DNA from: Thuidium tamariscinum
Taxonomy: Eukaryota > Streptophyta > Bryopsida > Hypnales > Thuidiaceae
Direction: 5' to 3'
DNA length: 64,000 nt
Assembly (NCBI GenBank): GCA_947034885.2
Contig: OX344749.2
Span: 47,769,682-47,833,681 of the forward strand
Numbering within the stretch: position 1 is the first letter of the stretch; each line of letters opens with the position of its first letter. Position numbers and translations under genes: made by a program. Under the pieces are notes generated by a model. That model ran no database searches and was not told where the DNA came from. It saw only the letters and a list, made by a program, of their open reading frames with translations. Positions 15,760-62,593 of the stretch are shown piece after piece.

Positions 15760-15933
15760 CCCTTCCTCTCCACTTCATTTTTCCTTTTCGATTTGGCAAA
15801 TCGAGGTACGGCTTGTGTGCAGGTTTTGGAGCGCGTATAGAGAGAGAAAGAGTGGTGAGCAGTAGAGATCGGTTCCGAGTTTAGTTCAGGATCGGTGCCG
15901 ACCGCACCGACAAGTTCCGACTCGGGCGGAGAG

Positions 15934-28103: not shown

Positions 28104-28127
28104 TCTCTCGGCAGTCCGGGCTGGTCC

Positions 28128-29861
28128 CTAGCTTGGTGACCCGGATCCAGATCCGGTCTTCAGTATAGAGCGGACCTGCACCGTTGCCTTCGCTTCCCCT
28201 CCGGTCTTTGGTTGTGTGATGACCGTGGGTGATGACTTGCTTGGAGAATCATCCAACAAGGTGATGAACTTGGTCTTCTCCCTTGGTGGTGTAGTTCCCC
28301 GGATTATCTCCCTCAACACAATCGGCTCGGGTTCCGGCTCCTTGGTCTTCTCGGGTTGAGAAACCCTGGGCTCTTCAATCCGGGCCGGTGGGACAGATTC
28401 CTCCTCCACTGCGTCGGTCCTGGTTCCCTCTTCCTTCGCCGGTTCAGATATGCCGGCTTCTACCTCGACAGCTGCTAGTGGTGGCTGATCCTTCGGTTGC
28501 TCCTTCTCCATCTTTGTCTCTTCCGGTCCTGAGACCGGAGCAGAACTAGCTTGGACCTCCGTGACTACTGACCGCCACTTCTCCAGCGCTGCCTCCATTT
28601 TCTTGTTGTAGGCCACCAGAGCTGTAAGCATCTGAGGACCCACCATCTTGCCTGCTTCCAAGACCTTCCTGTCGAAAAGCATGGCTTTGTTGACGACTTC
28701 ACCCGGATGCGTGATGAACTCTCGGATTTCTCCGAGTGTGTTCCGGGCCTGCGTGGTGAGTCGTCTCTCTTCATCCAGCTCCTCCTGAGTGTGATGGAGC
28801 TCCCTCCTCAGGGCTGAGACCTGATTTGTTAGCCGGAGTACCTCCTCTCTGTCCCGACTATCATGAGCCTCCTGAATCAATTCTCCCAACACCTCCATGA
28901 TCTTGGAGGGGGGAATAGAGCCTAAAGCTTGGCTTATGGCCCGCAATAACCCTCTCTCCTCTAGGTGGTGCTTTCTGAAATCTTCCAGGTCTCGCAGGAT
29001 CCTTAGCAAGGGATCCTGTTCCCAGACCGGATCTAACCTCTGGGCTTCCCCGGCTACTACAGGGGTTTCTAGAGGTGGATCCTCTCTTCCTACCTCTGGA
29101 ACCTCCTCTACTTCTTGTGTGCCTCCTTGATGCCCCTCCTGACTCTCATCCTCGGAGTCCTCCTCATCCTGGTCATTTTCCGCTTCCGGGTCTGCAATCT
29201 CATACTCTATCAATGCAGCCCCTACCTCGTAAGCTTCCATCTCCTTCTCTCTCAAGAGGTCTAACAAATGATACAGATGAAACAGGAATGGTGAAATGGG
29301 AGAGGGTTTAGATTTCCCAATTCCTTTCACCATTCGGTCCATCCGGTCCCTCATAACTAACCCCCAATCTATCTTCCTGTCTCCCAACAGTGCACCAAAG
29401 ACAGTGTTGGCCACGGTGACCGTAATCCTACTAGGTCTATCCGGGTTCAAGATCGCCATCATGAACCGCAGTAGCCTCTTGTGTCTAGCAGACACACACT
29501 CTGCTACTGTAAAGCCGTCCTTCGGGTTGGTGGGCCTGCGGAACTTCCCTTGGTGGAATTTGTCCGTCCGGGTGCCCGTTGCATCTCCTCCTTGCTCGAA
29601 GGCGTACACCTTGCGCCACATCGCTGCACTCCACTCCTTTGGCAGCGCCCGGACCGTCCCTTTCCACTCGTTGGTCTGGCCGGCCAGTAGCTCCTCCACC
29701 ATCGCCTCATCCTTCAGGTTCCAGGGGTGAGCCATGAACCCCTCGCAGCCCATCTGCCTGAGGTCTTCCTCCAGCTCCCTCTTGTCTTGTGCGTCAGTTG
29801 GCACGACCGGATTCACATTCCGGAAGGCTAGAATCCTTCCTTCCTGCACCTCTTCTGCCAT
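28128..29861 (-). CDS. LTR-encoded protein (577 aa), copy in the 3' LTR
   Basis: An open frame in sense orientation lies within the LTR. Its N-terminal block aligns with the ORF of the solo LTRs at roughly 40% identity by eye (shared RTDKF...KFR, NPKDGFTVAEC, TVTVANTVFG, FHLYHLLDLL). It also shares the coiled coil and the LTALVAYNKKMEA segment. The LTR position, large size and cross-family conservation argue for a real protein. Function unknown; it has no Gag or Pol motifs. Confidence 0.75.
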   Translation of the reverse strand: MAEEVQEGRILAFRNVNPVVPTDAQDKRELEEDLRQMGCEGFMAHPWNLKDEAMVEELLAGQTNEWKGTVRALPKEWSAAMWRKVYAFEQGGDATGTRTDKFHQGKFRRPTNPKDGFTVAECVSARHKRLLRFMMAILNPDRPSRITVTVANTVFGALLGDRKIDWGLVMRDRMDRMVKGIGKSKPSPISPFLFHLYHLLDLLREKEMEAYEVGAALIEYEIADPEAENDQDEEDSEDESQEGHQGGTQEVEEVPEVGREDPPLETPVVAGEAQRLDPVWEQDPLLRILRDLEDFRKHHLEERGLLRAISQALGSIPPSKIMEVLGELIQEAHDSRDREEVLRLTNQVSALRRELHHTQEELDEERRLTTQARNTLGEIREFITHPGEVVNKAMLFDRKVLEAGKMVGPQMLTALVAYNKKMEAALEKWRSVVTEVQASSAPVSGPEETKMEKEQPKDQPPLAAVEVEAGISEPAKEEGTRTDAVEEESVPPARIEEPRVSQPEKTKEPEPEPIVLREIIRGTTPPREKTKFITLLDDSPSKSSPTVITQPKTGGEAKATVQVRSILKTGSGSGSPS

Positions 29862-30412
29862 CTCTCACTTGACGCCTACACAATCTAGGCGCGGTCCAAC
29901 TTAACTAAACCTCCTGCGCTCAAGAACCTGTCAGCTAGCGTAGTGCTATTCGCTCAACTATGTACCAGACCGGATTGACAGTTTATCTATCCCTTCTCTC
30001 TGTCTGTAGACCAAATACTCTATCTCTGGCCGGAAACCCTTTCTCGAACTGCGTGCAAGAAAGTGGCAGGACCTAGCCCTGCTTCCCTGGTCTTATACTT
30101 TTTCCCCCGGCATTAATTACTGACCGTTAGGTTTAAACCAGTCTGGTCACGTGGGAGAGATCCCGACGATCTCTAGACTCGGTAGCCACTCATTACCTAT
30201 CCGGTCTCGGTCGCTAGGTGGGCGGAATCCGGGATTTCATACGCTGTCCCTTAACGTAGTTTCTGGTTTACGGTCTAGGATTTTCCGGTTTCCGGTCTTG
30301 GTCCCAATTATGTGTAGAAACTAAGAAAACAACAAAAAAAATGGGGATTGAATAGATCCCTCTTCCCGTATTTTGCTTAAGAACCTGCTTAGGTGAATTC
30401 TAGGTTGCCACA

Positions 30413-36488: not shown

Positions 36489-37763
36489 CTTTCTCGTGTC
36501 GTAGCACAGGAAAGCACAATTCCTTCTCTAAGGCTTTAGAATGCACTAAATTAGCCTTAAAGTGACTCGTGTATCGTTCCCAAGAGATTTGGTCGAAAGT
36601 TGACGAAAGACCGGAATACGTTAGTGGTTATCACAACAAAACCCAAGCAAAAGACTGATCCGGTCTTGGTCTCCAACGTTCCTAAGATTTCCTTGGACCT
36701 GATTACCAGATCAATCCTTTATCCTTCCAAACTAAGTCTATCTATCTATACCTGTATGTTCACCACCTTGATGCTTACGCTCACTAGATATGGGACTAAA
36801 GACCGGATACTAGTAGCTGGTCCAATCCCTAGTATAGTAACCAAGTGTAAGTTTAACCTCGATAACAAGAGGGATCTGCTTGTTTGGGCGTTTAGGAAGG
36901 AAGCTTACTCCTACCCTTCAAGTTTTAAAGTGTCAGAAGTTCCACTTATGAGTAAAAAGAAACTACTACTACAAACAGACCGGAATACCTCACAACTGGA
37001 CCGGGACTAATCCGACCCAATAGGTCACGCAAGCACTCCTGCCTAATCCTAACAAAGACTACAACGATGGAAGAACCAGTTAGTCTAATCCCTGGTAGAA
37101 TAAGGGCGGTAGCTTATGCAAGAGAGCTGAATTTCCTCACTTAGTCCTTCTTTCTTCTACAGAGACCGGATCACCATTCAGTTGGCATTTGGCCGGACGC
37201 TCCCGATCTCAAACCCAGACTCTACAAGTGTCTATCTCTATCAAATACTCCCTAGACCTGTTTCAGAAAGCACTGTGGGATCCTGCACAAATTCCCTATC
37301 AAAACCGAATTCACTTTAAGTCCAGAGACCGGATAAACTGACCATCCGGGCACACACTTATCCACACAAGGTTGCAATCCTAACCATCACCATAAGACTT
37401 TGACAAGGTCCCATGCACACAGTCCACTTCAGAGTGAATCAGAAAGGTTCTGACTTGTATTTGCAACACAAAAACTTGTGAAAGTAAGATAACATAATGC
37501 GCGCCCGAATTCAATTACGAACCGGGTTTAAATACTAAACTGCAAGAAAACCTAAAAGTGCAAATGGAATCAACACCAGCCGCCAAGAATGCCACCTCAC
37601 ATTCCTCTACAACTTGGGTAGGTTGACTTCCACAAAACTACAAAAATACCAACAAAATAGGATCACAGATCCTACATATCTGGATCCGGTCTAAGTTCAA
37701 AAGTTCCTAACCTAAATATAACTTGGTTTAGCCGCCTTCCTATCTACCTGTAATTAATGCCCC

Positions 37764-38102
37764 CTATTTCCTCGCCTTCTTGAGAGGCGACGCACCTTTC
37801 CGGGCTGGCTGCTTCTTCGGAGACCGGTACATCTTGATGGGCTTGGGTTTCGGTTTGGTCTTACCCCGCGCCCTGGCCCTGGTCTTCGTGGTCTCTGCCA
37901 ATGCCTGGTCCGCATCTGAGTACTGTTCCGACTCATCACCGGAGTCGGTCTCTTCCTCCGAGTCCTCATCTTCCTCATCTGACTCCTCTTCCTCTTCATC
38001 CCGGGCCTTCCGCTTCACCTTGGATGTCTCCGCGGTCTTCTTCTTGAATCCGGTGATGGGCGGGTGGTGCACTATCTTGCTTTGCGGGGTCTGCTCCCCC
38101 AC
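37764..38102 (-). CDS. Acidic/basic tail ORF in the 5' LTR
   Basis: Duplicate of the tail ORF in the 3' LTR: an acidic cluster followed by a Lys/Arg/Pro-rich end. See the 3' LTR copy for its relation to the solo LTR B protein. Confidence 0.4.
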   Translation of the reverse strand: MGEQTPQSKIVHHPPITGFKKKTAETSKVKRKARDEEEEESDEEDEDSEEETDSGDESEQYSDADQALAETTKTRARARGKTKPKPKPIKMYRSPKKQPARKGASPLKKARK

Positions 38103-38126
38103 TCTCTCGGCAGTCCGGGCTGGTCC

Positions 38127-39860
38127 CTAGCTTGGTGACCCGGATCCAGATCCGGTCTTCAGTATAGAGCGGACCTGCACCGTTGCCTTCGCTTCCCCTC
38201 CGGTCTTTGGTTGTGTGATGACCGTGGGTGATGACTTGCTTGGAGAATCATCCAACAAGGTGATGAACTTGGTCTTCTCCCTTGGTGGTGTAGTTCCCCG
38301 GATTATCTCCCTCAACACAATCGGCTCGGGTTCCGGCTCCTTGGTCTTCTCGGGTTGAGAAACCCTGGGCTCTTCAATCCGGGCCGGTGGGACAGATTCC
38401 TCCTCCACTGCGTCGGTCCTGGTTCCCTCTTCCTTCGCCGGTTCAGATATGCCGGCTTCTACCTCGACAGCTGCTAGTGGTGGCTGATCCTTCGGTTGCT
38501 CCTTCTCCATCTTTGTCTCTTCCGGTCCTGAGACCGGAGCAGAACTAGCTTGGACCTCCGTGACTACTGACCGCCACTTCTCCAGCGCTGCCTCCATTTT
38601 CTTGTTGTAGGCCACCAGAGCTGTAAGCATCTGAGGACCCACCATCTTGCCTGCTTCCAAGACCTTCCTGTCGAAAAGCATGGCTTTGTTGACGACTTCA
38701 CCCGGATGCGTGATGAACTCTCGGATTTCTCCGAGTGTGTTCCGGGCCTGCGTGGTGAGTCGTCTCTCTTCATCCAGCTCCTCCTGAGTGTGATGGAGCT
38801 CCCTCCTCAGGGCTGAGACCTGATTTGTTAGCCGGAGTACCTCCTCTCTGTCCCGACTATCATGAGCCTCCTGAATCAATTCTCCCAACACCTCCATGAT
38901 CTTGGAGGGGGGAATAGAGCCTAAAGCTTGGCTTATGGCCCGCAATAACCCTCTCTCCTCTAGGTGGTGCTTTCTGAAATCTTCCAGGTCTCGCAGGATC
39001 CTTAGCAAGGGATCCTGTTCCCAGACCGGATCTAACCTCTGGGCTTCCCCGGCTACTACAGGGGTTTCTAGAGGTGGATCCTCTCTTCCTACCTCTGGAA
39101 CCTCCTCTACTTCTTGTGTGCCTCCTTGATGCCCCTCCTGACTCTCATCCTCGGAGTCCTCCTCATCCTGGTCATTTTCCGCTTCCGGGTCTGCAATCTC
39201 ATACTCTATCAATGCAGCCCCTACCTCGTAAGCTTCCATCTCCTTCTCTCTCAAGAGGTCTAACAAATGATACAGATGAAACAGGAATGGTGAAATGGGA
39301 GAGGGTTTAGATTTCCCAATTCCTTTCACCATTCGGTCCATCCGGTCCCTCATAACTAACCCCCAATCTATCTTCCTGTCTCCCAACAGTGCACCAAAGA
39401 CAGTGTTGGCCACGGTGACCGTAATCCTACTAGGTCTATCCGGGTTCAAGATCGCCATCATGAACCGCAGTAGCCTCTTGTGTCTAGCAGACACACACTC
39501 TGCTACTGTAAAGCCGTCCTTCGGGTTGGTGGGCCTGCGGAACTTCCCTTGGTGGAATTTGTCCGTCCGGGTGCCCGTTGCATCTCCTCCTTGCTCGAAG
39601 GCGTACACCTTGCGCCACATCGCTGCACTCCACTCCTTTGGCAGCGCCCGGACCGTCCCTTTCCACTCGTTGGTCTGGCCGGCCAGTAGCTCCTCCACCA
39701 TCGCCTCATCCTTCAGGTTCCAGGGGTGAGCCATGAACCCCTCGCAGCCCATCTGCCTGAGGTCTTCCTCCAGCTCCCTCTTGTCTTGTGCGTCAGTTGG
39801 CACGACCGGATTCACATTCCGGAAGGCTAGAATCCTTCCTTCCTGCACCTCTTCTGCCAT
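38127..39860 (-). CDS. LTR-encoded protein (577 aa), copy in the 5' LTR
   Basis: Duplicate of the ORF in the 3' LTR. The start ATG is at 39860 (MAEEVQEGRILAFRNV). In order it has a conserved N-terminal block, an acidic spacer, a coiled coil (EEVLRLTNQVSALRRELHHT onward), a Pro/Glu-rich region and a segment with TLLDDSPSK, which parallels VILDDSD in solo LTR B. This copy is the one downstream of the 5' LTR promoter. It could be an accessory protein made ahead of Gag. Function unknown. Confidence 0.75.
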   Translation of the reverse strand: MAEEVQEGRILAFRNVNPVVPTDAQDKRELEEDLRQMGCEGFMAHPWNLKDEAMVEELLAGQTNEWKGTVRALPKEWSAAMWRKVYAFEQGGDATGTRTDKFHQGKFRRPTNPKDGFTVAECVSARHKRLLRFMMAILNPDRPSRITVTVANTVFGALLGDRKIDWGLVMRDRMDRMVKGIGKSKPSPISPFLFHLYHLLDLLREKEMEAYEVGAALIEYEIADPEAENDQDEEDSEDESQEGHQGGTQEVEEVPEVGREDPPLETPVVAGEAQRLDPVWEQDPLLRILRDLEDFRKHHLEERGLLRAISQALGSIPPSKIMEVLGELIQEAHDSRDREEVLRLTNQVSALRRELHHTQEELDEERRLTTQARNTLGEIREFITHPGEVVNKAMLFDRKVLEAGKMVGPQMLTALVAYNKKMEAALEKWRSVVTEVQASSAPVSGPEETKMEKEQPKDQPPLAAVEVEAGISEPAKEEGTRTDAVEEESVPPARIEEPRVSQPEKTKEPEPEPIVLREIIRGTTPPREKTKFITLLDDSPSKSSPTVITQPKTGGEAKATVQVRSILKTGSGSGSPS

Positions 39861-40090
39861 CTCTCACTTGACGCCTACACAATCTAGGCGCGGTCCAACT
39901 TAACTAAACCTCCCGCGCTCAAGAACCTGTCAGCTAGCGTAGTGCTATTCGCTCAACTATGTACCAGACCGGATTGACAGTTTATCTATCCCTTCTCTCT
40001 GTCTGTAGACCGAATACTCTATCTCTGGCCGGAAACCCTTTCTCGAACTGCGTGCAAGAAAGTGGCAGGACCTAGCCCTGCTTCCCTGGT

Positions 40091-40100
40091 CTTATACTTT
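40091..40100 (-). promoter_or_regulatory. Putative TATA box of the 5' LTR
   Basis: AAAGTATAAG on the minus strand, at a distance from the LTR ORF similar to that of the TATATAAA boxes of the solo LTRs. Confidence 0.4.
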
Positions 40101-40704
40101 TTCCCCCGGCATTAATTACTGACCGTTAGGTTTAAACCAGTCTGGTCACGTGGGAGAGATCCCGACGATCTCTAGACTCGGTAGCCACTCATTACCTATC
40201 CGGTCTCGGTCGCTAGGTGGGCGGAATCCGGGATTTCATACGCTGTCCCTTAACGTAGTTTCTGGTTTACGGTCTAGGGTTTTCCGGTTTCCGGTCTTGG
40301 TCCCAATTATGTGTAGAAACTAAGAAAACAACAAAAAAAATGGGGATTGAATAGATCCCTCTTCCCATATTTTGCTTAAGAACCTGCTTAGGTGAATTCT
40401 AGGTTGCCACACTTTTCCCCACAATAATTTTCTTAATACACTAGAAGCACTTAAAACGATGCATCTTCCTTTATTTATTGTCTATGTCGAGGAACCCTCC
40501 TCACTGTACAAACTTTGGCGGTTTCAGTTCATACAACATCATCCTCCATACCTTGCTATTTTACCTCACATACGCTTTGCTACATTCGAGATTTGAGAAT
40601 AATTACGGAGGAATTGCCTTCCAATCTTGAAATACATAAATCACAAGCTAAAACATAATACAGTAGACCACAAAATTTAAGACAATCAGTGGAACTTGTC
40701 TTAC

Positions 40705-43100: not shown

Positions 43101-45718
43101 CGTCTTCAAATTCTAGAGTAAAGACTTCTAAATTTCACATAAACATCAACATTGAACCTAATGCCCACCAATTATTGGCACTTCAATATACCATTGTTTA
43201 CTAATTGAATAATTAACTACTCTCAACATATTCAAGATTTTCATTTCATTTGAAGACTCAACCTTGCTTTTTTTCCACAACTCCGTATCAATTTTTTACT
43301 AGCAAAATGTTAATGTCATGCATATCCATATGTCGTATTTGGAGTGACCACAATTGGTTTAGCTACCATAATGGGAAGAAGTTCACAGGTTTAAAATTGT
43401 ATTATTATTAAGTTTGCCAACATCAAATAAAAATTTCAAAAAACAACCCATTTGGATGAAAAAAATATGGAAGTAAAATGGCTTGTAAGTTTTGTATTTT
43501 TTGATTCTATGACTACATTCTTACTATTCCAACTTTGAACAAAAGTAAATGCAATTTTGGCTTAGTCAACTACTTGATATACTTCCACATTCATATTTCA
43601 AGAAAATATGTATTCTAATAATAACAAATCCAACCCTTGGATAGAAAATAACTTCATAATGTATCCCTAAAAATTAGGATGACTTTCATCCAACCTATAA
43701 TCAGAAAGAAATCTGACACTGAATCTGTACATAGTCTAGAAAATGGACATCGAAGCACTTAGGGGTTAAATTATTGCATAAGTATCTCAAAAAAAAATTG
43801 TAGTTCAACTCCAAAATGCATGTGGCACCAAATTATCCTATCAACAATACTTTGAAGTTAAATAAAACCTAATGAAGTTGCTAGTTCTTAATCTTTAAAT
43901 TTTCTAAGGTATTTTTCCACAAATCCATAGAAAATAATCAAAGTATAGAAGTGACAATTTAAAATGTTTATTCCACATGGTTTGAGGCCTTAGACCTTTA
44001 AGGATGCAATTTTGGTTTAGAAATTGTACTTCAAATACACACATAGACATATAAAATTGTTCAAAATTATGAATTGTAACCTACTGCAAAATTCATGCCC
44101 TAATGCAATGAAATTGACTTTTTTGATATTTGTTTTGGCAAAACCTAATGTTGCTAGAGGTTTTTACAAACAAATTGATCAAAAATTGAGTAGCAAATGG
44201 AGAATGATAATACATGAGCTAAAAATATGATCAATATCTCTCTCCTAAATATAAATGATCAATACTTGCCTAGGTCTACTTTTTGCAAGTACCCAATTTG
44301 GAATATGAATTGTCAAGCCCTACTTTGAGCTATGTAATGTAGTGAATGTATACTCAATGTTGTACCAAATTATTGTGCAAATTATACAATTGATAAGTTC
44401 TTCATTGATTATTGTGATCCACTATTTAATTAGGATTGAATAGTAATTCTATTAATAGAGATGATAGAAGCATGGAATTCTCAAAATGTATAAAAAAACA
44501 AATTTGATTGCAAATGACCTTATTGGATATTGATTTGTTTTTGGAATAATTGTGGTGCATTTCAAGATGCAAACTATTTAGGTTGAATTGTTGAAAAGGA
44601 AAAATGTGAGATTTGTGGATGTCATTTTATAGTCCACTGTATAGGAAAGTTTTGGTGTTTTTTGTCAAATAATATATTTTTGGATTGTCGGATAGGTGTT
44701 GAAGTGGCCAAAATATGGATCATGTAAGTAATCTTCTTCAAGTTTGTGCTCATTTGAAAAGCACTATAATTTCATTTTTCACAAAACTAAAATGCCATTA
44801 GAAAAATATGATTTTCAAGAAAGACAAAACTTTGGTGTCTTGTAAGTGAATGAAAATTCTTATGCACCAATATTGGGTTTCATGAAGTATAATTATGGAT
44901 TTTTGTGTATTCAAAAAATGTGGCATTCTACATTAATAAAAAAAAGGTACAATTCTTTTTTAACTTTAGAAATTAAGAAAATAACACTGTAGAAATGGTT
45001 AGACACTTTTGCCATATCATTTGCCTATGATTTGCCAAAATCCTTTGAAATTGTTGTTATTTAGCTTACTTTTGAATGTATTTATTTTTACTCATTCAAA
45101 GTTTAAATTAAGATATTCTCATGTCCATTCAAGTTTTTCCTCAATGCTCTTCCAATAATCTTAGTAATTTTACATCTATTATAAACTAATCTTTTACTTC
45201 CTATAACTTTTGTAGTGTATATAGTGCATACCCCATTTAAAATAACAATGGAACGTATTTTGTAGTCCCACTACCTCAAATGTCAAATGACCAAAAATAT
45301 TTGATGAGATTAATAGCAAACTCAAGATTAATGCAACCCATTCAAGTGTTATTTTTTCAATTTTTTGGGGGCTCCAATAATATGTTTTGTGAATGTAACA
45401 TGTAAATGTTCAAATTTAAATGTTTAGATGATATTTTATAGTCCTAGTTACTTGTGAAAATTTAGGTCAAGCCCCCAATGATAATCCTATGTAGAGATTG
45501 ATTACATTTTTACATTACTAAAACTTGGTTTTATTAATATGTATTGGATGTAAATTTGTCTTTACTTTTATTTGTAACTTTCCAAATCTATAGCTTATTA
45601 AGTTATGTATTCTTGAGTTATGGCTACTAATAGAGATGGGTTTTTTTTCTTGAATCAGGTATAAGAATTATTTTATGTTAAGGTAGCCTTAGAGGTTTGG
45701 AAACATCTACATCTACAA
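43101..45718. other. AT-rich DNA upstream of the TET/JBP-like gene
   Basis: Strongly AT-rich, with no coding frame, RNA gene or clear repeat. It starts abruptly next to the TNPA-like copy and probably contains the promoter of the downstream gene. Confidence 0.4.
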
Positions 45719-48700
45719 ATGGCTGATTGTGCAAGCTCGAGGTATGTTGTATTAAAGGATGATTGTTGAATATTAACTCTTTCTAGATATTTTATTTAGT
45801 TAAATATTTATTTAGTATTAGGGTAAATGATTAAGAACATAATAAGAACTTAAAGATGAGGGTGGAAGATTTTGAAAAAGGAATTGGCTTTTACGATCTT
45901 TCATTCTATATGGTAGAATTAAAAAATAAGAATGATTGATTTTGAAAAAGCAATTTGGCTTTTACGATCTTTCATTCTATATGGTAGAATTAAAAAATAA
46001 GGATGATGGATTTTGAAAAAGCAATTTGGCTTTTATGATCTTTCATTCTATATGGTAGAATTAAAAAATAAGGATGATGGATTTTGAAAAAGCAATTTGG
46101 CTTTTACGATCTTTCATTCTATATGGTAGAATTAAAAAATAAGGATAATGGATTTTGAAAAAGCAATTTGGCTTTTACGATCTTTCATTCTATATGATAG
46201 AATTAAAAAATAGGTATGATGGATTTTGAAAAAGCAATTTGGCTTTTACAATCATTCATTCTATAAAGTAGAATTAAAAAATAAAGATGATGGATTTTGA
46301 AGAAGCTCTAACAATCTTTTGTTCTACTTATTATATCTTGATTCTTGAAAATTAAAAAAATTAATTTTATAAAATTATTTTAATTTCTGTGGTCCATTTT
46401 TATTAATTATGTAATATAATGTAAAAATAGAGAAGAAAAAACAGAAGTAATTATAGTTTTAGGTCTATTTATATGTTTTCTAATCAATTTGTTTTCATAT
46501 ACAGGAAAGATAGAATTAGTGCTAAGAAAAGGCAAAGGGAGAAAGATTACATCAAAGCCAAATTGAAAGCCAAAAGATTAAAAGAATTTGAATTCGTAAG
46601 ATCAGAAGTCAAAGGTATGTATATGAAGGACATTCTTTTTATATTTTTCAATTTCTATTTCATTAAAAAGATTAGTTGACATTAGATTATCTTTAAAGAC
46701 AAAAAATTTATATCAAACTTTTTTTCTGAATTATTGTATATTGATCTTTTATATTTGTTCTTATATTATTATCTTATAGGTATTTTATTTTAGTTCAAAT
46801 AAGATGTAAAGTACTTTTTGAATAATTTGAGTTGAATTTTGTGGAGAATTCATAGTATTACAACTATTTTGAATTATTTTTTATTCAAACATTATTTTTC
46901 ATTTTTTATTTATAAGATCTTAAATGAGAGGTATTTATATGAAGGACATTCTTTTGAAATTTTTCAATTTCTATTTAATTAAAAAGATTGGTTGGCATTA
47001 GAGTATCTTTAAAGATAAAAAATTTATAACAAATCTTTTTTTCTTAATTATTATTTATTGATCTTTTATATTATTATCTTATAGGTATTTTGTTTTAGTT
47101 CAAATCAGATGTAAAATACCTTTTGAATTATTTGAGTTGAATTTTGTAGAGAATTCATAGTATCACAACTATTTTGAATTATTTTTTATGCAAACATTAT
47201 TTTTCATTTTTTATTTGTAAGATCAGAAATCAAAGGTATTTATATGAAGGACATTCTTTTTATATTTTTCAATTTCTATTCAATTAAAAAGATTGGTTGG
47301 CATTAGAGTATTTTTAAAGATAAAAGATTTATATCAAATTTTCTTTTCTTAATGATTATTTATTGATCTTTCATATTTGTTCTTATAGGTATTTCGTTTT
47401 AGTTCTAATGAGATGTAAAGTACTTTTGAAATATTTGAGTTGAATTTTGTAGAGAATTCATAGTATCACAACTATTTTGAATTATTTTTTATTCAAAAAT
47501 TATTTTTTATTTTTTATTTATAAGATAAAAAATCAGAGGTATTTATATGAAGGACATTCTTTTCATATTTTTCAATTTCTATTTAATTAAAAAGATTGGT
47601 TGGCATTAGAGTATCTTTAAAGATAAAAAATTTATATCAAATTTTTTTTTCTTAAATATTATTTATTGATCTTTTATATTTGTTCTTATAGGTTTTTTAT
47701 TTTAGTTCGAATAAGATGTAAAGTAGTTTTTGAATTATTTGAGTTGAATGTTTTAGGGAAGTTACAATATCACAACTATTTTGAATTATTTTTTATTCAA
47801 ACATTCTTTTTTATTTTTTATTTATAAAATCTGAAATTAGAGGTATTTATTTGGAGGACATTCTTTTGATATTTTTCAATTTCTATTTAATTAAAAAGAT
47901 TGGTTGGCATTAGAGTATCTTTAAAGATAAAAAATTAATATCAAATTTTTTTTTCTTAATTATTATTTATTGATCTTTTATATTTGTTCTTATAGGTATT
48001 TTGTTTTAGTTCAAATAAGATGTAAAGTACTTTTGAATTATTTTAGTTGAATTTTGTAGAGAAGTTATAGCATCACAACTATTTTGAATTATTTTTTTTT
48101 CAAACATTATTTTCTATTTTTTATTTGTACGATCTTAAATCAGAGGTATTTATATGAAGGACATTCTTTTTATATTTCTCAATTTCTATTTCATTAAAAA
48201 GATTGGTTGGCATTAGAGTATCTTTAAAGATAAAAGATTTATATCAAAATATTTTTTTTAATTATTATTTATTGATCTTTTATATTTGTTCTTATAGGTA
48301 TTTTGTTTTAGTTCCAATGAGATGTAAAGTACTTTTGAATTATTTTAGTTGAATTTTGTAGAGAATTCATAGTATCACAGTTATTTTGAATTATTTTTTA
48401 TTCAAACATTAATTTTTATTTTTATTTATAAGATCTGAAATCAGAGGTATTTACATGAAGGACATTCTTTTTATATTTTTCAATTTCTATTTAATTAGAA
48501 AGATTGGTTGGCATTAGAATATCTTTAAAGATAGACAATTTATATCAAATTCTTTTTCTGAATTATTGTTTATTGATCTTTTATATTTGTTCTTATATTA
48601 TTATCTTATAGGTATTTTGTTTTAGTTCAAATAAGATGTAAAGATCTTTTTGAATAATTTGAGTTGAATTTTGTAGAGAATTCATAGTATCACAACTATT

Positions 48701-50140
48701 TTGAATTATTTTTTATTCAAAAATTATTTTTTATTTTTTATTTATAAGATCAGAAATCAGAGGTATTTATATGAAAGACATTCTTTTGATATTTTTCAAT
48801 TTCTATTTAATTAAAAAGATTGGTTGGCATTAAAGTATCTTTCAAGATAAAAAATTTATATCAAATTTTTTTTTCTTAATTATTGTTTATTGATCTTTTA
48901 TATTTGTTCTTATAGGTATTTTGTTTTAGTTCAAATAAGATGTAAAGTACTTTTTGAATAATTTGAGTTGAATTTTTTAGAAAAGTTACAGTATTACAAC
49001 TGTTTTGAATTATTTTGTATTCAACCGTCTATTAATATTAAATTTTTTTAATGTAGGTGCATATGTCTTTCAAATAGAAAGAAATGTTGAAAATCTTAAT
49101 AAAAAATATTGGAAGTACATTCCTTCAAATCATGTGTGCATCAACCACAACATGTCTGTTGTCCAAGGCAAGACTTCAAAGGAAGTAGTGTTGGTAGCAA
49201 GGTGTTTGCCTTTTAAAGACATGTCTAAAGATGAATTTATGGAGTATGAGAAAATTACTTTAACTCTCTTGTTTATGATGAAAGGTGCAAGCAACGTGAC
49301 GACAAATACCGCCAAAAAATCTGGCAAAATGTATGCCGTAGGATGGAGAGGAGGTATGTTTATAATTTAAATAGTTTTATAATCATTTAAAAGTTTATAA
49401 TATTTATAAATATCTTTCTTAAAATATGTGAGTGTGATTGATGTTATTGGTATTGAATTATAGGTACAAATAGTGGTCTTACTGTTGGCCGTTACGTTCC
49501 TGATGGATCAATTCAAAGAAATGAACTTGAACTTCGAAGGTGGGAGCAACAACAGAAGCTTTTATTCGAACTGGCAAGAATTTATGGCAAAAAGTTTTCT
49601 ACACTTGCACCAACTTTATTTGAACACACAAGACTTGAAGCAGTACAAACTCGAGTACCTACATTGGCTGAAACAAAGTTTGATTTGCTTCATGTTCAAG
49701 ATAACGCTTTCTGCAGCAACCTTACCTATACTATAAAAGATTTTAGTAATTGCTTTCATAAAGATAATGATTTCAATGCTTATTCCTTTGGAATATGGGC
49801 TCCAATTTGTTTAGAAACTGGAAAACTACTAGGTAGACAAAATGGTTTTTCTAGTACAGGGGGTCAATTTTTATTAGGATCTTATAAAGCATATGTAGAC
49901 TTTAATTTATGTGATGGCATTGTAGAAATTATATGGAGAGGTAAAACAGATTTTCATAGTACCTTGCCAGGTACAACAAGTGAAAATTGTACAAGATTTG
50001 GCTCATCAGTACAAATTAGCAAATCATTAGTGGAAAGAGTAAAAACATTGTGCAAAATGAATGCAAAGGGAGATGATATTAGTAAAAAAGTACATGGTGT
50101 TAACAAAATTATGGAAACCAAATTGAAAGATTTGAACTAA
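45719..50140 (+). CDS. TET/JBP-like 2-oxoglutarate/Fe(II) oxygenase
   Basis: Four exons: 45719-45741, 46505-46614, 49057-49353 and 49464-50140. All junctions are GT-AG and phases close exactly (1,107 nt, 368 residues plus TAA), with no internal stop. The N-terminus is short and basic (KDRISAKKRQREKDYIKAKL). The C-terminal half shows the double-stranded beta-helix signature of the TET/JBP family: Fe ligands H242 and D244 (FHKDND), the strand YSFGIW, GGQFLLGSYKAYVDF, the distal Fe ligand H308 (TDFHSTLPG), and R321 (CTRFGSS), placed to bind 2-oxoglutarate. The family oxidises 5-methylcytosine or thymine in DNA; the product here is unknown. Small TET/JBP genes of this kind are known in fungi, often with DNA transposons, and in green algae. 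Introns 1 and 2 are filled by tandem repeats. This is the only clearly unbroken non-LTR gene in the window. Confidence 0.85.
45868..46310. repeat. 71-bp tandem repeat in intron 1 of the TET/JBP-like gene
   Basis: Six full units and a partial one, starting at 45868, 45938, 46009, 46080, 46151, 46222 and 46293 (period 70-71 bp). The units are nearly identical, so the array is young or homogenised. Each contains CATTCTATATGGTAGAATTA, a near-palindrome. Confidence 0.9.
46595..49030. repeat. ~304-bp tandem array in intron 2 of the TET/JBP-like gene
   Basis: Eight units with starts spaced 301-316 bp apart (landmark near 46626, 46942, 47247, 47550, 47854, 48157, 48458 and 48774), a few to ~10% diverged by eye. 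The first unit begins at the 3' end of exon 2. Later units still carry a degenerate copy of the exon end and donor (AGATCAGAAATCAAAGGTAT). The array thus grew from the exon 2/intron 2 junction itself. Confidence 0.9.
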
Positions 50141-52050
50141 ATTTATAAAAGCAATAGCATTTGATACTCAAGTCTTTAATCCTTCTTATTACTTTGTGAT
50201 GCTTTTCATTCAAAACCGACTTTAGTATTGTCATTTTTTGTAGGAGCAGCAAATTATAGGAAAAAATATTTGTATTTCTATAGTAGAGAGCAATTCATTA
50301 AATTCCACAAAGTATTTTTTCAAAAAAGGTATTGAATACTATCCTAAACCTCCAAATTAACAAGTGTTATATGCATTTAGGGCCTAATTGTGGAAACTAA
50401 ATTAATTTTGAAAATTGATGAAAAATAAGGGAAGTTGTATGATAGTCCTTGGTATCCTACCTATAAATCTTGAGTCATTTGATTTCAAAATATAGAAATT
50501 ATGGCCAAGAAATTAATCAATATACATAACTAGCACAAAATAACAATTTAGGAACTCAAAATGTACAACCTTTTTTAGTGCTTAAATTCTTTAATAGTTG
50601 TCCTAATATTCTCTTATAATGATTTTTTTTTCTAATCAATTCTTTAAGTGAATGTAGATGCTTAGATGCTAAAACAAATTAACCTTGCATTAGATGCATT
50701 AGATGGAATTTGAGCCTTCCAAATGCTTGTTTTGGGTTTGTTTTGAAAGAGTTCACAAAATAATTGATTACTATTAGGCTTACTTTTAAGGAAAACTAAA
50801 AATTGGCATGCAAAAATAAGTCCAATAAAAAATAGGAAAATTACTTAGCATAGTCATGGCTACATCAATTTCCTACAATTCATATACTTTTTGCATTCCA
50901 AGTTTGTAGGAATTTGCAATCTCTTGAAGCCCTCAAATTGCATCTAATATTTAAGTTATCTAGTGCAAAAAATGATCTACTACTTCATAAGATGAGTCTT
51001 CAAATTTCATCTATTGTATAAGTTCTCTAGTCCATAAAATGATCTACCTTCATAAAATGACATCACTGATAGTATGTTTTAGTAGTGCAGAGAATGATCT
51101 ATGTTGACAAACAACATCAATGCTATTGTGTATAGGTAGTCAAGAAAATGATCTAGCTTCACAAACAACATCAATGATAGTGTGTATAACTATACATGTG
51201 TGATTTTCATGTCATTAGTCTTTTTATTTTATTATTTGAAAAAAAATATAGGAAATTGCCATAACCTTCATACTGAAATGTAGCCTTCTTTTTATAAGAT
51301 AGTATTTTCAAAAATATAAATATTTTTAAATGATGACATTAGCTTATGAGAATGAACATGAAAGACAATGAAATTGAAGAGATGACATAAATTCTTGCAA
51401 ATGATTGCATAGGTATAAATGTGAAATTGTTTGCAAAATGTTGCAATTGTTATTGGATGCCAACCTTGTTCAAAGTAAAAAGAATGTCCCCTCTAAAATC
51501 CATATAACTAAATCTAATGGGATAGGTAAACTTGTAAACCCATTGTGCCTGTTTAATTGTATTGAATTAATTGAAATTTCAATAGGTTCAACACAATGCC
51601 AATATTTTGATAAGTTCTTGATATGATTTTTTTTTAAATGTAACCATGAAAATTCAAATAAGACATGTTAGAGATTGCATAAGAAAAGAAAACACAAGAA
51701 TATCACTTATGCTATGGAAGATTATAATGTTTGATTATGAGGGTGTTAATACTGCAAAACTGTTGTAAAGTTTTTCCATCCTCTTTTCGCACATCAAATT
51801 TTGAGAGTTGGTGACAAAACAAATATGAGGTTAAAAGGCCTAATATACATAACTCCTATCAATTTATGGTTTCTCGAAATATACTATACAATTTATATAA
51901 ATTAATTTTGAATGTGAATTTTTCTCCAAAATGTATTTGAGGCTCATTTTCAAGAACTCTACACACTAGGTGGGAAGTCAAGGTTACCATGGGTACTATT
52001 TCTCAAAATTGTGAAAACAGAAACAAAATTATCGTTCATTTTGTAGATTG
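50141..52050. other. AT-rich DNA downstream of the TET/JBP-like gene
   Basis: No exon or RNA gene seen. A degenerate ~60-bp repeat with the landmark AATGATCTA occurs at about 50960-51200. The region ends near 52050, where the second TNPA-like copy begins. Confidence 0.4.
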
Positions 52051-53700
52051 GATTCCTGGAGTGTCAAGGCCAACTGGAGACGTTAGGCGAATCTCTAAAT
52101 CTGAAAATGGATGGAACATCCTTCGAATAACACAAACTGCGAGCACTGCATACGACCGAGGCTGAAGATATACCCATAAATGAGCATGCATGATGCAGAA
52201 CTCTGCATTACCGTCCACTGCTTACTGACACTACTTCTGCTTTGTCGTTTTAATGGCTCTAACGTGTCGATCATTTCAAGTGCACTTGCCGGAATGACTA
52301 TCAAAGCTGGTTGCAAAAAATTATTGCTTTAGTTGTAACGAACCTACCCTTGACATGCCAATTGATTCGTACCTCGAACTCCTGAATCCCTGATTCATCG
52401 CTACAAACGGACTTGGAGTCAGCCTTATTCTGAAGATTTCCGCAAGAAGAGCTCCAGATTTCTTCACCTGCCTCCTCTGATTTGCTGCACCTTCTGTTCA
52501 CGCTCCCACCTCCGACGTTGTGGGAGCTCAACCGCACTACATTTGCAGTGCCTTTCGATCAACAGTTCTTTACAGTCCTCAAAATCAAACTGTGCTTCAA
52601 GGTACCCGTACTCTCCCCATGCATCGAGGAACATCTTCCATCTCCACACGATGACACATTCAGCGCCGCATATCTGAAGAAGACACTCACCACATAAGAC
52701 AAAAACATCAATTCCTGCACCTCCAGCATTCCACAAATAGAAGGCGGTGCTAGCCGAGATGAATCAAGTTAAGGCACATATCCCTAGAACATGTACTACT
52801 GTGACAGTCACTTTTCTTTCCTCTCCCTTTTTTAAGCTTCTTTAATGACGGCTGCGGAGCTTTCTAAAAAAACCAGGATCCCATTATAACTTCCCCTTTG
52901 CAAAGGCTGTATTTGCGGCTCGATGGTAATGGTCAAGATGAAATGCATGGGCAGCACCTGACGTGCTCCTAAATATATCTGCTCAAACTAGGTATGCCCG
53001 TGTAGCATTACCTAACACTAATTAATTCTGACACACTATGAAATCATCTACTTCCACAAATTCTGGATGACTTAGATGCACCAAACCAAAGGAATTATCT
53101 CTGAATTTCACAGCACTTACTGGTTCCTCCTCATTGTCGCCGCTTCTCTAAGCTGGGCCTGCTCTTTCTGAACGACAAGGTTATAGCGCTTCAGCTCATA
53201 CTCCGATATCGCCATCCTACATCAAGGGTACTACTGCCAAAATTATTCAGGGAAACCCTAAGGCGCACAATTCCAGCACTCTTACTACTGGAAGTCACTA
53301 TTCTGATTGCACCTCTTCCTCACTTCCACTCCTGAAACGGACTCCGACGAAGACGATGAGTCTCCCCAACTGGCACTGACATGCCGAGCTTCTGCACAAG
53401 CGCGACGCTCTCCGATCGAGTTCCAAGAGTACCCGAGGAGCTTCCAACAAAGGCAGGTATGCAACTTCTGAAAGACAGCAGGCATGCACTGGGACTCAGT
53501 TCTCAGACTCGACACATTGCGGTTTTGTATTCATTGTCTATTAAACATGTGCAAAAATTACCCTATGCCATTAATGTATACGAACGACTTACATGTCACT
53601 GTCATCAATCAGTGCTTCCATTGGGAAGTAGTGATTGAAGTGGTAAGCTTCTCATTACTATGCATCCTCTCCTTCCCTAAAGTGGCTTAGGTTGTGCATG
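52051..53700. repeat. Diverged direct repeat matching ~40.6-43.1 kb
   Basis: The non-coding parts also align: GAAGGCGG...CACATATCCCTAGAACAT near 52740-52790 matches 42020-42070, GGCTGCGGA.CTTTCTAAAAAAAC near 52850 matches 42130, and TGTATTCATTGTCTATTAAACATGTG near 53530 matches 42875. The two stretches are in the same orientation and bracket the TET/JBP island. Confidence 0.6.
52373..53215 (-). pseudogene. Second, truncated copy of the TNPA-like gene (exons 1-2)
   Basis: Exon 1 (53121-53215, ATG at 53215, MAISEYELKRYNLVVQKEQA) and exon 2 (52373-52673) have exactly the same lengths and phases as in the 42.5-kb copy, at roughly half to two-thirds identity in exon 1. Exon 2 has one in-frame TGA at 52559-52561 with the frame otherwise open. 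A possible further exon lies near 52208-52300. Homology ends near 52050, where AT-rich DNA begins, so the 3' two thirds of the gene are missing. Confidence 0.65.
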
Positions 53701-54643
53701 ACGAGGTATCAGATGGCCCTTCTTCTGAACTCTACAGCACGGACCGGGCCGGTTTTAGGTTTGATGCGCGGTGTCACTTTTGCTCGTTTGTGATGCCCTC
53801 GAGCAATGTTCCTTCGCTGCGAACTTCCATTCTATTCAGTTCAATGACGTCCTTGCACATGGCAGTATTTTTAACCCTGGTTGTGCATAATCAGGTGGTC
53901 CTTCAGAATCGCACATCATGGGCCAGGGCGGGGCCAGGCTCAGGTTGAAGACTCAATAGATCTTCCCTGCACTTTGTTCAAGGAACACTACAAACAGTGG
54001 ACGACAACATCGTACATGCGGAAGTGGGATCCTGTTCGATTCGAATCATACGTTTCAGGCACGTCCTCTAACACGTCGTCAGTCCTTCTGCACACTGAAC
54101 TTCCCGTTGTGTGTTATTTCTACCGCTCTTACTTTCAAGCAAAAATCAAATGCGCCCAAGGATGAGGGTTCCAATTATCCAGTACTGCAATTACGACTTC
54201 GTTTTAGGGTTTCCAGTGTCCGCAAGTAGCCTTCATGTCCAGTATGGCATTGTATCATTGACATACAAAAGTCTTGAACTTGTTCTGCGTTTTCAAAAAT
54301 CTATTCTACTGCATCTGGAAAGTTTACGTAAAGCATGCAGACGTCTCTACCGTGCAAAGGCAGGTTGACCATGGCCAATTCTTCGACATCTGTACACTAC
54401 GTTACGTCAGGCAATTCACAGTAACTTCTCCGGAAACTCACTACGTAGTACAAGGAATTGTGCAATTGAAAAGCGAATCCAAGTGCAAGGACGGGATGAA
54501 GCAGGGACCTACGCTACAGACCGTCCTCCAATTCCGCGATCGACATATTTAAGGTAAACCCAAATCTTCTTCAGGAATGCACGTCACTTAGGGTAACATG
54601 TGCATTCCTTCTCAGACAAATAAAATCAATGAAGAGTACAGTA
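53701..54643. other. Unassigned stretch between minus-strand genes
   Basis: No supported exon. A minus-strand Ser-rich frame near 53285-53430 (SWGDSSSSSESVSG) just to the left could be an exon of the neighbouring gene but has no clear junctions. Confidence 0.3.
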
Positions 54644-57186: not shown

Positions 57187-60100
57187 ATGAGGGGAGACTT
57201 GCTTGGTCAGGCTTACCACATCGAGCGTGCGGTTGCAGCGCGGCAAGGCATTTCCAGATATTCTTGCGGATGCGAAAGATGCCATGGATTCAAGATACAA
57301 GCCACTCAAGTTGTGCAGAGTCATCATAGAAAATATGGCAGGGATCGAAACTTGCAAGAGCCTCTTCTGGTGAGGTCTACGAAGAATGTGTCAAACTCTT
57401 GCAGACCTCAAAAGCTGTTGCGGTTTAACGGAACTTCCTCAATGTATAGTCCATTGAAATAGTAATATAGCCTAATGAACACAGTGCTCCCAACTATCAA
57501 TTGCAGAGACAGTTACAGCATTTTCTTCCGCTGGTTGCCTTGCTTGGATTCAGTGCCCCCGGGTTTAAATAAATGAACATTTGGAAATTGTTTCTTGTGG
57601 TTCCTCTTCTTATGTTGTTTTCATTTTGTTTTCCAGGGGAATGAATCCCGTCATGCAGAGACTACGGAGGACCCACATGTTGGGGAAGAAGACATCCACG
57701 ATGTAGATGAATACCTCGATGCAGAAGATTTTGTCAATGTCGACCCTGCCACTGCAAACACAGAAGTCCATCTTGAGGACATGGCACGTGATTATTTCAC
57801 TCGCGTAGACGAAATTCATGAACAGTTTTCAGACGAAGATGATGCTGTCCTCGATTTTGAGGACTTGACATCCGATGAGGAGGAATCGGACGATAGTGAT
57901 ATTCTAGAAGAATTGCTAAAGCAATCAACAGAGCCTCTTTTCGATGGGTCAAGTACAAGCAGGTTACAATTCAGCATCATTCTCATGTCTTTATGTACTC
58001 TTTATTCTGTCAGTCATCACTGCCTGGACGAGATTCTTACGTTTCTTAAGCAGGACGTGCTTCCTTCAAATAATAACTGCCCCAAGAACTCGTATGAAAT
58101 GAAGAGTCTACTGATGAAGCTAGGCCTTTCACATGAGAGCATCCACTGTTGTGACTGTGGGAAAACTTTGTACTGGCAAGAGAATGCAGAATTAGATAAA
58201 TGCCCGCATTGTCAAAAGTCCAGATACATTGAGGGTTCTCAGACAGTGCCTTTACGAGTCCTCAGGTACTTCTCAATAATTAAGAGGTTGAGAAGAATGT
58301 TTCGATGTCCTTTTCTTGCTAAACACATGAGATGGCATTCTAGCAATCACTCAGAAGATGGGAAAATGAGGTCTGTGGTGGATGGGGAGCAGTGGCGTTT
58401 TATAGACGAGCGCTACCCAGACTTTGCTAGAGAAGTCAGGAATATTAGGCTGGGCCCTGCACTAGACGGAGTGAACCCTTATAGTTTGCAGTCCAGCAAA
58501 CACTCTATTTGGCCAGTGATGATGGTGATATATAATTTACCCCCTTACCTAGTGACCAAACGTTTTTTTGTTTCTTTAACTATGATCATTCCTGGGCCTA
58601 AGTCTCCAACGGAGAGCACTATAGACGTTTTCATGCAACCTTTGGTACATGAACTGAAAAAATTGTGGAAGGGGGTTCCAACAGTGGATATGTCAGTCCC
58701 ACCAGAAACTCGTCGACTATTCAAGTTGCGTGCAATACTAATGTGGACCATTAACGACTTCCCCGCTTATACACTGATATCAGGACAAGCTGGTAAAGGG
58801 TATGCCGGTTGTCCAGTTTGTGGTGAATGCACAAGTGCAGAGTACTCCACTGCTGCAAATAAGACAGTCTTCCTAGGGAATCGGAGGTGGTTGAGACACA
58901 ACCATAGGTGGAGGGATGCACGCGCAGCATTTAATGGCCAACAGAATCATGAACCTCCACCTCCACGACAATGTGGTCTCACTATTGTTCAGCGTGGTGG
59001 ATGGAGGGAGTCATATTTGGGGTGCGGTGGTCGTGCAAACTCAAAAGAAGACCCAGTGAAGCGAACTGGTGTGAAAAGAGTTAGTATTTTTTTCGAGTTA
59101 CCATATTGGCAGGTGAGGTCCACTTCCACATTCCATTCCATGAAAATAGAAGTCTTTAGAAGTTCATGAAGGAAGTGTTTCGTAATTGTCAATATCTTGA
59201 TGGAATCATGAGGAACTGTTGGCTGTAGCTAGTGTAGTTGAGGTCTCGAAAGTCCAACCTGAACCCGTGGTGGTACATACTGTATGTATTGAAGTAGACA
59301 TGGCATCTGTGAGGTTCAGTGTTGAATTATTCTCCTTACAACAATGAAAAGAATGTCATCAGAAACTCTTGTCCCTACTTGCTTGTCATTTCAAAACATA
59401 ATATGGAACCAAATATTTTTCTTAAAGTGTGCTAACTGTGCAAGGCATTGAATTATTATGTCTGTGATTGATGTAGTGTAGTTGGTTCACTTGAAGAAGT
59501 AGTGGAATTCACGTAGTTATTCAGTACATTAAGGTAACATAGTCTATGTTTGAAAATTAATACTGAATCATGGGAAAAGTTTCATTCTTGTAACAAGACT
59601 GTGTTGCTTTGCTATTTAGTAGTTCTAAGAAGTGGTTGGAGGTTGGAGTTCAGTGGGTCAAAGTTTAATTACATGAGTCCATAAATAGCATTCACAGAAA
59701 CTAATTGTTGAAATGTGTGCAGGACCTTCCCATCCGTCATATGTTGGACCCAATGCACTGTGAGAAGAACGTCTGTGACATTTTGCTGCGTACTTTACTT
59801 GGCAAGACAGATGGGCCCAAATCACGGGAAGACATGCGTGTTCGTGGCATTCGTCCCCATCTGCATTTACAAGTGAATGCTGATGGGCGCACTTTTTTCA
59901 TGCCTAACGCTCCTTATGTTCTCAACCAAGAAGAGCGTCAAACCTTTTTCAGTACTATGAAGAACCTCAAGTTCCCCACAAACTATGTCAGTGCCTTGAG
60001 CAATAGGATTCAGGAAGGTAAATTGAGAGGAATGAAAACGCATGACTTTCATATTCTGCTTCAATAGGTACTCCCTCTCTGTTTCAGGAACATTTGTAAT

Positions 60101-62593
60101 GACAAAGTGGTGGGAGCTATTGTGCGCGTCAGTAGATTGTTCTGTAAAATTTTTGGTAAAGTAGTTGACAAAGACCAGAGAGAGCATATGCTTGATGATG
60201 TAGCTGAGACCATTTGTACCTTAGAGAAAGAGTTTGCCCCATCCATATTTGTCATAATGATGCACCTTCCGATACATCTAGTAGAGGAACTGTTCATTTG
60301 CGGTCCGGTGCAAACACGGTCGATGTATCCATTTGAGCGTTTCATGAAAGTTCTCAAAGGCTTTGTGAAAAACAAAGCGAAGCCCGAGGGAAGCATGGTG
60401 TATGGATATATGAGAGAAGAATCAATTGAATTTATGAACGAGTATCTTTCTGAATATATTGGGACAAGAAAACGTGCATGGGACGATGAGGAGGAGCCTA
60501 CCATGTATGATGAAATTTTGGAAGGGGTGAAGCGTGACTGTGTCATGACTCCTGAATTTCAGAAGCTCATACATGGTTTTGTGTTAGATAATACGTTGCA
60601 CATGGAGCCGTACAGGAGGTAAGTACCTTTGACGACATAAAAGCTATTTAAATTCAGGAGAGTTAAACTGAGTAGTCTTGCAGTCTTACTTAAATTTTAG
60701 TGGTACAATGGAATTTTTCAATCATGAAGATTTCATGCATACACAATTACAAACCGTATACAGGAAAGTGGAGTGAACATATGGGCTAATGAACTGTGTG
60801 CTTCCGTTAGTGTTGCAGACATCTGGCAGTTATGTTGAACGTTACAGCAGTTATTGAAGAATTGAGACATGAACTGTATGTCTGTAGGTTGTCTAGCTCT
60901 GCTTATGACGGCATTGTTAGTTTCGCTCTCGAGATTTGAAGAGTCGTTGTGTCTACGTAAAAGAGGAATTTGACAGAGTTGTTTGCTCTTTTATTTATGC
61001 TGTGGACTAGAAGAATGTCTAAGGCTGGGTCTGATTGAACATTGCAGTAGTGGAGAGAAACGTAGGGGTAGCCGAACTTGTATTGGTGACTTGGCTGTGG
61101 TAGTGGCGTGAAATGTGAGAAGAATTGCATTGTAGTAAATAATTGTGGTGGGCTTTCGAAGAACCCAATGTCTAAAAAGCAGTGCATGTATGCGGACTTG
61201 ATGTGTTAGGACTTCAGGAATTCTTTCAGTATTGTACAGTTCTGGAGACACTGTGGTGTGTTTTTCGGAAATTCTGAAGTGAAATTCTATCTCATAGACC
61301 GTTACCTTTTGTTTGAATTTCTCTGTTTTTGGATGTAGGAGGTACGTGGACTGTATGGAACGGAGGCAGCAGGAAAGATCAGAATATCGAAGACAGCTTC
61401 GTGGAGGGCGTCGAAGTCGATTTAGTTACCCAGAAGAGTTGAAGGAGCTACCAGACTTCGCCGAATGGATTTTACAGGAAGTGAAGAGGGAGCGCGAGGA
61501 AGGAATGGAGGTCGATGCTAATGTAGTGGACACTGCAAGAGGACCATTGCCTACAGCGGCATCATACAAAGGAATGTATGCTTATGGAAATCATTACCGA
61601 GTTTTGAGCTCGGAGCAGGCCCTCAAAACTTCGGACAGTGGAGTGGCAGCCGTATTCAAACAAGTATGCAGAAATGGTATTCGCGATACCAATCAGGTGA
61701 ATGCAGATGTGGAATACGTGGGCCACATTGAGGAAATATTGGAACTAAATTACAGAAGGCATTGTTTAGTGGTTTTAGTTTGCGATTTTGTGAAAGCAAA
61801 CTATATTGGTGAAAATGCAACGATAAAAAAGGATAAGTGGGGTTTCACTTTGGCGAATTATAGAAGGAGGTACGGTAATGTATGTCGCGACAGTTTTGCT
61901 TTTCTGATTCATTGTGAACAGGTATATTATGCTGAGGCCTTAGAGGCACCTGGATGGTGAGTAGTTCTCAAGAAGGAGGTCAAAGGAAAAAGAGTGGTGC
62001 CCAATGATGGCGAAGAAGTGGAAGCCGAACTATTTCAAATGGGGGATGACGAGGACTTCGATGGATTGATACCTGAAAGGGAAGTTGGTGAGGGGCCACT
62101 TCCAGCACCACGAACAGGACATAATGTAGTTCTAGAACCCGTTCGAAGAAGAGGAAGGAACGTGGGTCGCGGTGCAGGAAGAAGAAATGGTCAACATCGT
62201 AGTCAAAGGTATGACGGGTCGCCCAGTCGGGCGAGGGAGATGCAAGGAGGGACACCAGCTACTGACAGTGAAGAGGAGGTCCATTCTGAAGAGGTCGATG
62301 AGCGGGTCGAAGAGGAAATGTTTCTGAGAAGGAACTTGGGCAGTAGAAGTGGAGGTAGCAAGAGAATGAGAGAATCAGGTGGAAGTGGTCATTCCAGAAG
62401 AGTTCGAGTGAGACATGCTTCGGAAGAACAGGTTGGCCTTTAGGAGGAAATGTTTGCAGACATTGATCGCAGTCATTCAACTGATGCTTCAACTTCTTCC
62501 TTGCCAACCAGTTCGGATGGCACTGCCGGCAGTGAGGCAAGTTTTCAACTTCTCTGGTCATGTTATTTATTTATTTATTTAGCAAATTTGTAA
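57187..62593 (+). pseudogene. CACTA (En/Spm) transposase, TNP2 type, with three nonsense codons
   Basis: Four exons: 57187-57369, 57637-59112, 59723-60618 and 61339-62593. Junctions are GT-AG, phases agree, and the total is 3,810 nt (1,270 codons). In order: a Cys-rich N-terminal domain (YSCGCERCHGFKI), an acidic spacer, zinc-binding CCDCGKTLY...CPHC, and the TNP2 core (NPYSLQSSKHSIWPVMMVIY, LTMIIPGPKSP, GYAGCPVCGECT, FFELPYWQ/DLPIRHMLDPMHCEKNVCD). Then come the DUF4218-type (MHLPIHLVEELFICGPVQTR, YPFERFMKVLKGFVKN) and DUF4216-type (YGNHYRVLS, FVKANYIGE) domains and an acidic, Arg/Gly-rich tail. This is the catalytic transposase of plant CACTA elements. In-frame TAG (60065-60067), TGA (61958-61960) and TAG (62441-62443) occur without frameshift, so the gene looks recently dead. 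The opposite orientation to the TNPA-like gene is unusual. Confidence 0.88.

Follow-up and report, generated by a model that had tools for sequence, protein, structure and literature searches.

Among the characterised 5-methylcytosine (5mC) oxidases are TET2, NgTET1, CcTet of Coprinopsis and CMD1 of Chlamydomonas, which converts 5mC to glyceryl-5mC with vitamin C; their base contacts are taken here from the accessible text of PMC7854593 and PMC11040006. In fungi, TET genes are carried in many DNA transposons (Kojima 2025, PMC12730594, main text). For plants, a possible TET-like activity is discussed in the accessible part of PMC6949463 and left unsettled there. The existence of a plant TET-type oxidase is disputed, and a TET-like family expanded in the nuclear genome of a plant would make the question testable on named genes. 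Here we analyse such a gene at 45719-50140 in a 64,000-nucleotide stretch of the moss Thuidium tamariscinum (contig OX344749.2, positions 47,769,682 to 47,833,681, forward strand; 'the window'). Among the listed matches from open-licence papers, seen as titles and abstract starts, none reported a family of TET/JBP genes from the genome of a land plant, although the sequences may already be in databases. The accessible parts of PMC8594673, PMC12344493 and PMC11065319 added no plant TET gene, and moss, bryophyte and Physcomitr- do not occur as words anywhere in the main text of PMC12730594.

As judged from its sequence, the window gene is a genuine intron-containing Fe(II)/2-oxoglutarate oxygenase gene of PF20515, the 'Tet-like 2OG-Fe(II) oxygenase superfamily'. 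Four exons on the + strand join at exact GT-AG borders and close a frame of 1,107 nt (368 residues), as the first-pass annotation had proposed. Exon 1 (45719..45741) carries the start codon (MADCASS...) and ends at a GT donor; this start and exon are kept in the copies L019, L021, L022 and L028, and L020 has a rearranged 5' end. Exon 2 (46505..46614) encodes a basic, Lys/Arg-rich segment. The oxygenase domain begins in exon 3 (49057..49353), whose C-terminal end is GWRG, and exon 4 (49464..50140) encodes the predicted double-stranded beta-helix core, with H242, D244, H308 and R321 at the positions claimed for them, and the stop codon. All three introns (45742..46504; 46615..49056, 2,442 nt; 49354..49463, 110 nt) use GTATGT as donor, and moving one G across the border of intron 3 leaves the coding sequence unchanged. 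Exons 2 and 3 are equal in length, exon 4 is collinear and the position of intron 3 matches in the paralogues L019, L020, L021 and L022, so that the predicted exon structure is supported by homology to four paralogues. L019, L020 and L021 each contain one in-frame stop, and L021 also has a changed acceptor.

The introns themselves are repetitive. Intron 1 holds a 71-bp tandem repeat (45868-46306, 6.2 copies), and intron 2 a tandem array with a 303-bp unit (46772-49024, 7.4 copies). The length of intron 2 is 305-307 nt in L019-L021 (3950-4256 in L019) and 1,532 nt in L022 (2736-4267), against 2,442 nt in the window; it has been enlarged through tandem duplication of almost its full length, and the units each repeat the donor-like GGTATTT/GGTATGT. 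In a 288-residue protein, P0002 (source 'lgn'), an exon-2-like sequence joins directly to the end of exon 3, most of which is absent, and to exon 4. Splicing of a transcript, a deletion and a processed copy are all compatible with this arrangement.

The joined protein matches PF20515 at 1.9e-46 (159.2 bits; Pfam gathering cut-off 27 bits). Exon 3 alone matches weakly (0.024) and exon 4 alone at 3.9e-38 (132 bits), so that the score improves when exon 3 is added to exon 4. No other Pfam family was matched at E up to 1; this holds both for Tet_JBP (PF12851) and for the prolyl hydroxylase and AlkB families (2OG-FeII_Oxy and relatives). The earlier assignment to TET/JBP therefore stands as far as a TET-like oxygenase is concerned, with no pull towards prolyl hydroxylases or AlkB, but not as membership of Tet_JBP itself, and it is in the absence of a PF12851 match, as well as in the base-contact residues described below, that the window protein differs from metazoan TET and NgTET1. 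Searches of PDB sequences with the window protein and two alignments gave no match.

The species-named PF20515 relatives found were all fungi, namely five Agaricales (Mycena, Arthromyces, Dendrothele, Lentinula and Pholiota). The Mycena protein shows 34% identity over 63% of the window protein, and the mushroom proteins share with the latter the H-x-D-x-D, GG, W, H-x-T, TR-x-G and Q positions. They differ in being longer (436-527 residues), in the W-R element described below, and in falling on the other side of a 100/100 branch that separates the moss copies from the five fungal sequences. When the structure of a fungal relative (a middling model) was compared with known structures, CMD1 was best in both comparisons and NgTET1 was also among the leaders; ALKBH3 and prolyl hydroxylases came close behind CMD1 in one of them. 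The predicted structure of window exon 4 had a mean pLDDT (predicted local distance difference test) of only 39. In a search for viral relatives 13 stretches fitted the pattern and none was confirmed, and 14 comparison genomes gave no PF20515 match, a result that says nothing about plants.

The first-pass annotation had described a single gene. A PF20515 profile search of the whole assembly (363 Mb, 19 contigs) instead gave 48 matches, which we grouped by neighbourhood into ∼35 loci spread over at least nine contigs. We read 21 of these, the window and 20 of the 34 others with their flanks; the remaining 14 are known from profile matches only. Full-length intact genes were present at three of the 21: the window, its recent duplicate L022, and L009, which is intronless with a 378-codon open frame (372 residues from the ATG). 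Seven loci are stop-free in the aligned part, the other four being L010, L012 and L027, which contain frame changes, and L016, which spans residues 167-365 only. H242, D244, H308 and R321 are all retained in 16 of the 21 loci; at least one cofactor residue has been lost in L015, L024 and L026, L017 ends before R321, and a change at 308 in L028 is unsure because of an insertion at that place. The window gene thus belongs to an expanded family, most of whose examined members are broken. An expanded plant family would extend to plants the pattern of TET-gene proliferation seen in fungi, on which Iyer and colleagues have reportedly worked. Beside the pseudogene at L019, ∼2.3 kb away, lies a frame with a CIA30 domain (7634-7870; 1.5e-14), probably from a host gene; this fragment does not separate plant from fungus, and an NCBIfam scan near the copies gave nothing useful. 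Other characters of the assembly favour a plant: the Plant_tran transposase and the CACTA-type frames described below, a Ty3 polymerase of Tat/Athila-like appearance, contigs of up to 47.9 Mb, introns of 110-2,442 nt and the 100/100 branch speak against a fungal genome. A PF20515 expansion would be ordinary in a fungus, and the fungal identity of the named relatives and the GTATGT donors would fit one, but we regard this as very unlikely.

We then asked what selection had acted on the window copy. Compared with L019, L020 and L021, the nonsynonymous divergence (dN) is 0.095-0.107 and the synonymous divergence (dS) 0.37-0.47 by NG86, a dN/dS of 0.20-0.27 that may be overestimated because those copies are broken. 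Over the 248 codons fixed within each side of the comparison, dN is 0.048 and dS 0.261 (ratio 0.18). A dN/dS of about 0.2 in the older divergence indicates that the lineage was constrained.

The more recent history is different. At least 44024..54252 of the window is shared with L022, on another contig, at 97.0-98.6% identity by BLAST, a recent segmental duplication. In exons 2-4 the two copies differ by 13 nonsynonymous and two synonymous changes (861 and 219 sites, respectively); seven nonsynonymous and one synonymous fall on the window side and six and one on the L022 side, with codon 219 ambiguous. Coding divergence (15/1,080, 1.39%) falls within the range of three flanking stretches (1.02-1.43%), and intron 3 shows no change in 110 bases. 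The probability of at least 13 nonsynonymous changes among 15 is 0.0004 at a dN/dS of 0.18, 0.0033 at 0.25, 0.07 at 0.5 and 0.39 at 1. Some of the changes hit residues that are uniform in L019-L021, for example D146 and R354. Coding change since the duplication has therefore proceeded at a neutral-looking ratio, and the window copy carries no sign of selection for function; at the divergence seen between it and L022, we infer, the persistence of an open frame says little about function. The window copy is a recently duplicated, probably redundant member of the expanded family.

We compared the active site with the contacts described in PMC7854593 and PMC11040006, setting residue correspondences by motif spacing rather than by a structure of the window protein. 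The spacing of H308 and R321 is 13 residues, as for 397-410 in CMD1, and that of R142 and H242 is 100 residues, against 101 (244-345) in CMD1. W141-R142, within 'GWRGG', fits W204-R205 of CcTet and R244 of CMD1; in four of the five fungal relatives the Arg of this element is replaced by His (W-H or F-H). The likeness to CMD1 thus extends to the Fe ligands, the Arg and the spacing of the W-R element, although there is no match at the level of sequence. With CcTet and the AG-type transposon TETs the window family shares the HxD...H...R order, the W-R element and membership of an expansion, which in their case is fungal.

The positions expected to contact the base are another matter. Five residues beyond the first His (H+5), CMD1 has Asp350, CcTet Gly331 and TET2 N1387, whereas the window protein has F247 and its own copies F, E, H, L or C. 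At R+6, which is Phe or Tyr in TET2, NgTET1, CMD1 (Phe416) and CcTet (Phe391), the window protein has Gln327, which is invariant in a 15-sequence alignment; of the 20 own copies that extend to this position, 18 have Gln (Lys in L013, Glu in L024). At H+11, where CcTet and the AG type have Asp (Asp337 in CcTet), it has G253, and Gly stands at this position in 19 of the 21 own copies. A 5mC contact set of Asn or Asp at H+5 or a CcTet-type Asp, an aromatic residue at R+6 and Arg or His at R+8 is thus replaced by F247, Q327 and S329. The PE-type transposon TET/JBP proteins are likewise distant TET-like proteins recognised by structure, with CMD1 nearest, but in the accessible text of PMC12730594 they have HxE, whereas the window protein has HKD at 242-244. 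Because H+5 and R+6 differ from those of the 5mC oxidases, the pocket does not correspond to that of any known 5mC oxidase.

The reading that we consider likely is of a PF20515 TET-like oxygenase gene in an expanded, mostly broken family that was selected ancestrally, with the window copy redundant or drifting after the segmental duplication. In the enzyme so encoded, Fe(II) would be held by H242, D244 and H308 and the carboxylate of the co-substrate bound by R321; W141-R142 may be the counterpart of the CcTet and CMD1 element that packs on the flipped base, the basic N-terminal segment may serve in DNA contact or nuclear targeting, and the reaction would presumably be oxidation of a group on a nucleic-acid base. 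That the window copy is itself an active host DNA base oxidase maintained by selection, as the first-pass annotation had put forward, we regard as quite improbable. Its full-length open frame, its complete set of cofactor residues and the past constraint on the lineage would all be expected of such a gene, but the 13 nonsynonymous to two synonymous changes and the flank-like divergence apply to both copies since the duplication, the changes reach residues as uniform as D146 and R354, and, besides L022, three of the four closest relatives contain stops and the fourth an insertion. The two 5mC base-contact positions that are not conserved weaken the earlier proposal further. The same two positions, H+5 variable and R+6 Gln in nearly all copies, could be taken to mean that a 2-oxoglutarate oxygenase of TET-like ancestry has turned to RNA, protein or a small molecule, and the scores of ALKBH3 and prolyl hydroxylases close behind CMD1 would accord with this. 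We hold such a substrate to be unlikely, since CMD1 was at the top in both structure comparisons and the W-R element and both spacings fit CMD1.

A family of many copies on at least nine contigs, most of them broken, might also have spread as the cargo of a DNA transposon by aiding the escape of a mobile element from silencing, for which there is a fungal precedent (PMC12730594, main text). A block that L010 (4484-8312) and L025 (1357-4971) share at ∼85-87% identity indeed places a Plant_tran (Harbinger-type) transposase (PF04827, 1.5e-87; frame intact in L010, broken in L025) beside the TET-like gene, and is suggestive of a transposon-borne TET at these two of 21 loci. Yet such a transposase was found near only those two of the 21 loci searched, the L010 block has no detectable ends, and the window has neither an L010-type transposase nor convincing inverted repeats around its gene; the 930-bp repeats in the neighbourhood of L009 were inserted independently. 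Cargo status is therefore, in our estimation, hardly probable, and we retain the reading of an ancestrally selected family with a redundant or drifting window copy. A search for KDZ transposases gave no match but was made without any positive-control match, so that their absence is not established.

Two further arrangements were seen at these loci. Part of the TET-like copy in L025 (4007-5671) is present a second time in inverted orientation, forming a palindrome. A repeat of ∼930 bp, apparently flanked by TTAA, occurs in L009 at 1628-2567, 5572-6501 and 6947-7894 and in L027 at 3030-3972, and two inverted copies of it flank the intact L009 gene. We considered these arms as transposon ends and rejected them: the repeat is inserted in L027, where the close relative L017 has an empty site.

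A search of the assembly with PF12851 found four places, all below the cut-off. The best described, L029 (G000:C7, 19.896 Mb), has a 433-codon open frame that matches Tet_JBP at 6e-7 (29.3 bits, cut-off 34.9), with a weak zinc-finger match (0.024) and CMD1 as its best, weak, PDB match (0.083). L030 is identical to it over 3,270 bases and L031 is 99.3% identical, with 433-codon open frames at all three; L032 is decayed. Profile comparison of the PF20515 family with L029 was collinear but weak (probability 2.4%, P 0.019). It is a tentative, and on balance doubtful, proposal that two TET-type families exist here, the ∼35 loci of PF20515 and a Tet_JBP type with a zinc-finger-like N-terminus, and that at least one intact member, of the L009 or L029 type, oxidises a DNA base. 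A land plant would thereby possess an oxidative pathway in addition to DNA glycosylases, one that transposons may have disseminated to relieve their own silencing, as has been suggested for fungi. Genes of the L009 and L029 type are better first choices for assay than the window copy.

The window gene lies in an AT-rich island (44001..52000), with a G+C of 0.20-0.28 against 0.34-0.56 in the rest of the window. It had been seen as an unbroken gene amid decayed transposons; the frame is indeed intact, but the neighbourhood also holds a young Ty3-type retroelement on the - strand, whose long terminal repeats (LTRs; 26498-30412 and 36497-40411, 3,915 nt) are 99.85% identical. These LTRs each carry the same 578-codon open frame, and the polymerase of the element is one that we take to be Tat/Athila-like. 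An older repeat pair (6454-10249 and 15351-19165, 84% identical), with related open frames of 195 and 690 codons, probably represents the LTRs of a second element. A CACTA/EnSpm-type transposon lies at 57577-61960, with matches to Transposase_21 (4.2e-67), DUF4218 (7e-31) and, below the cut-off, DUF4216 (3e-06).

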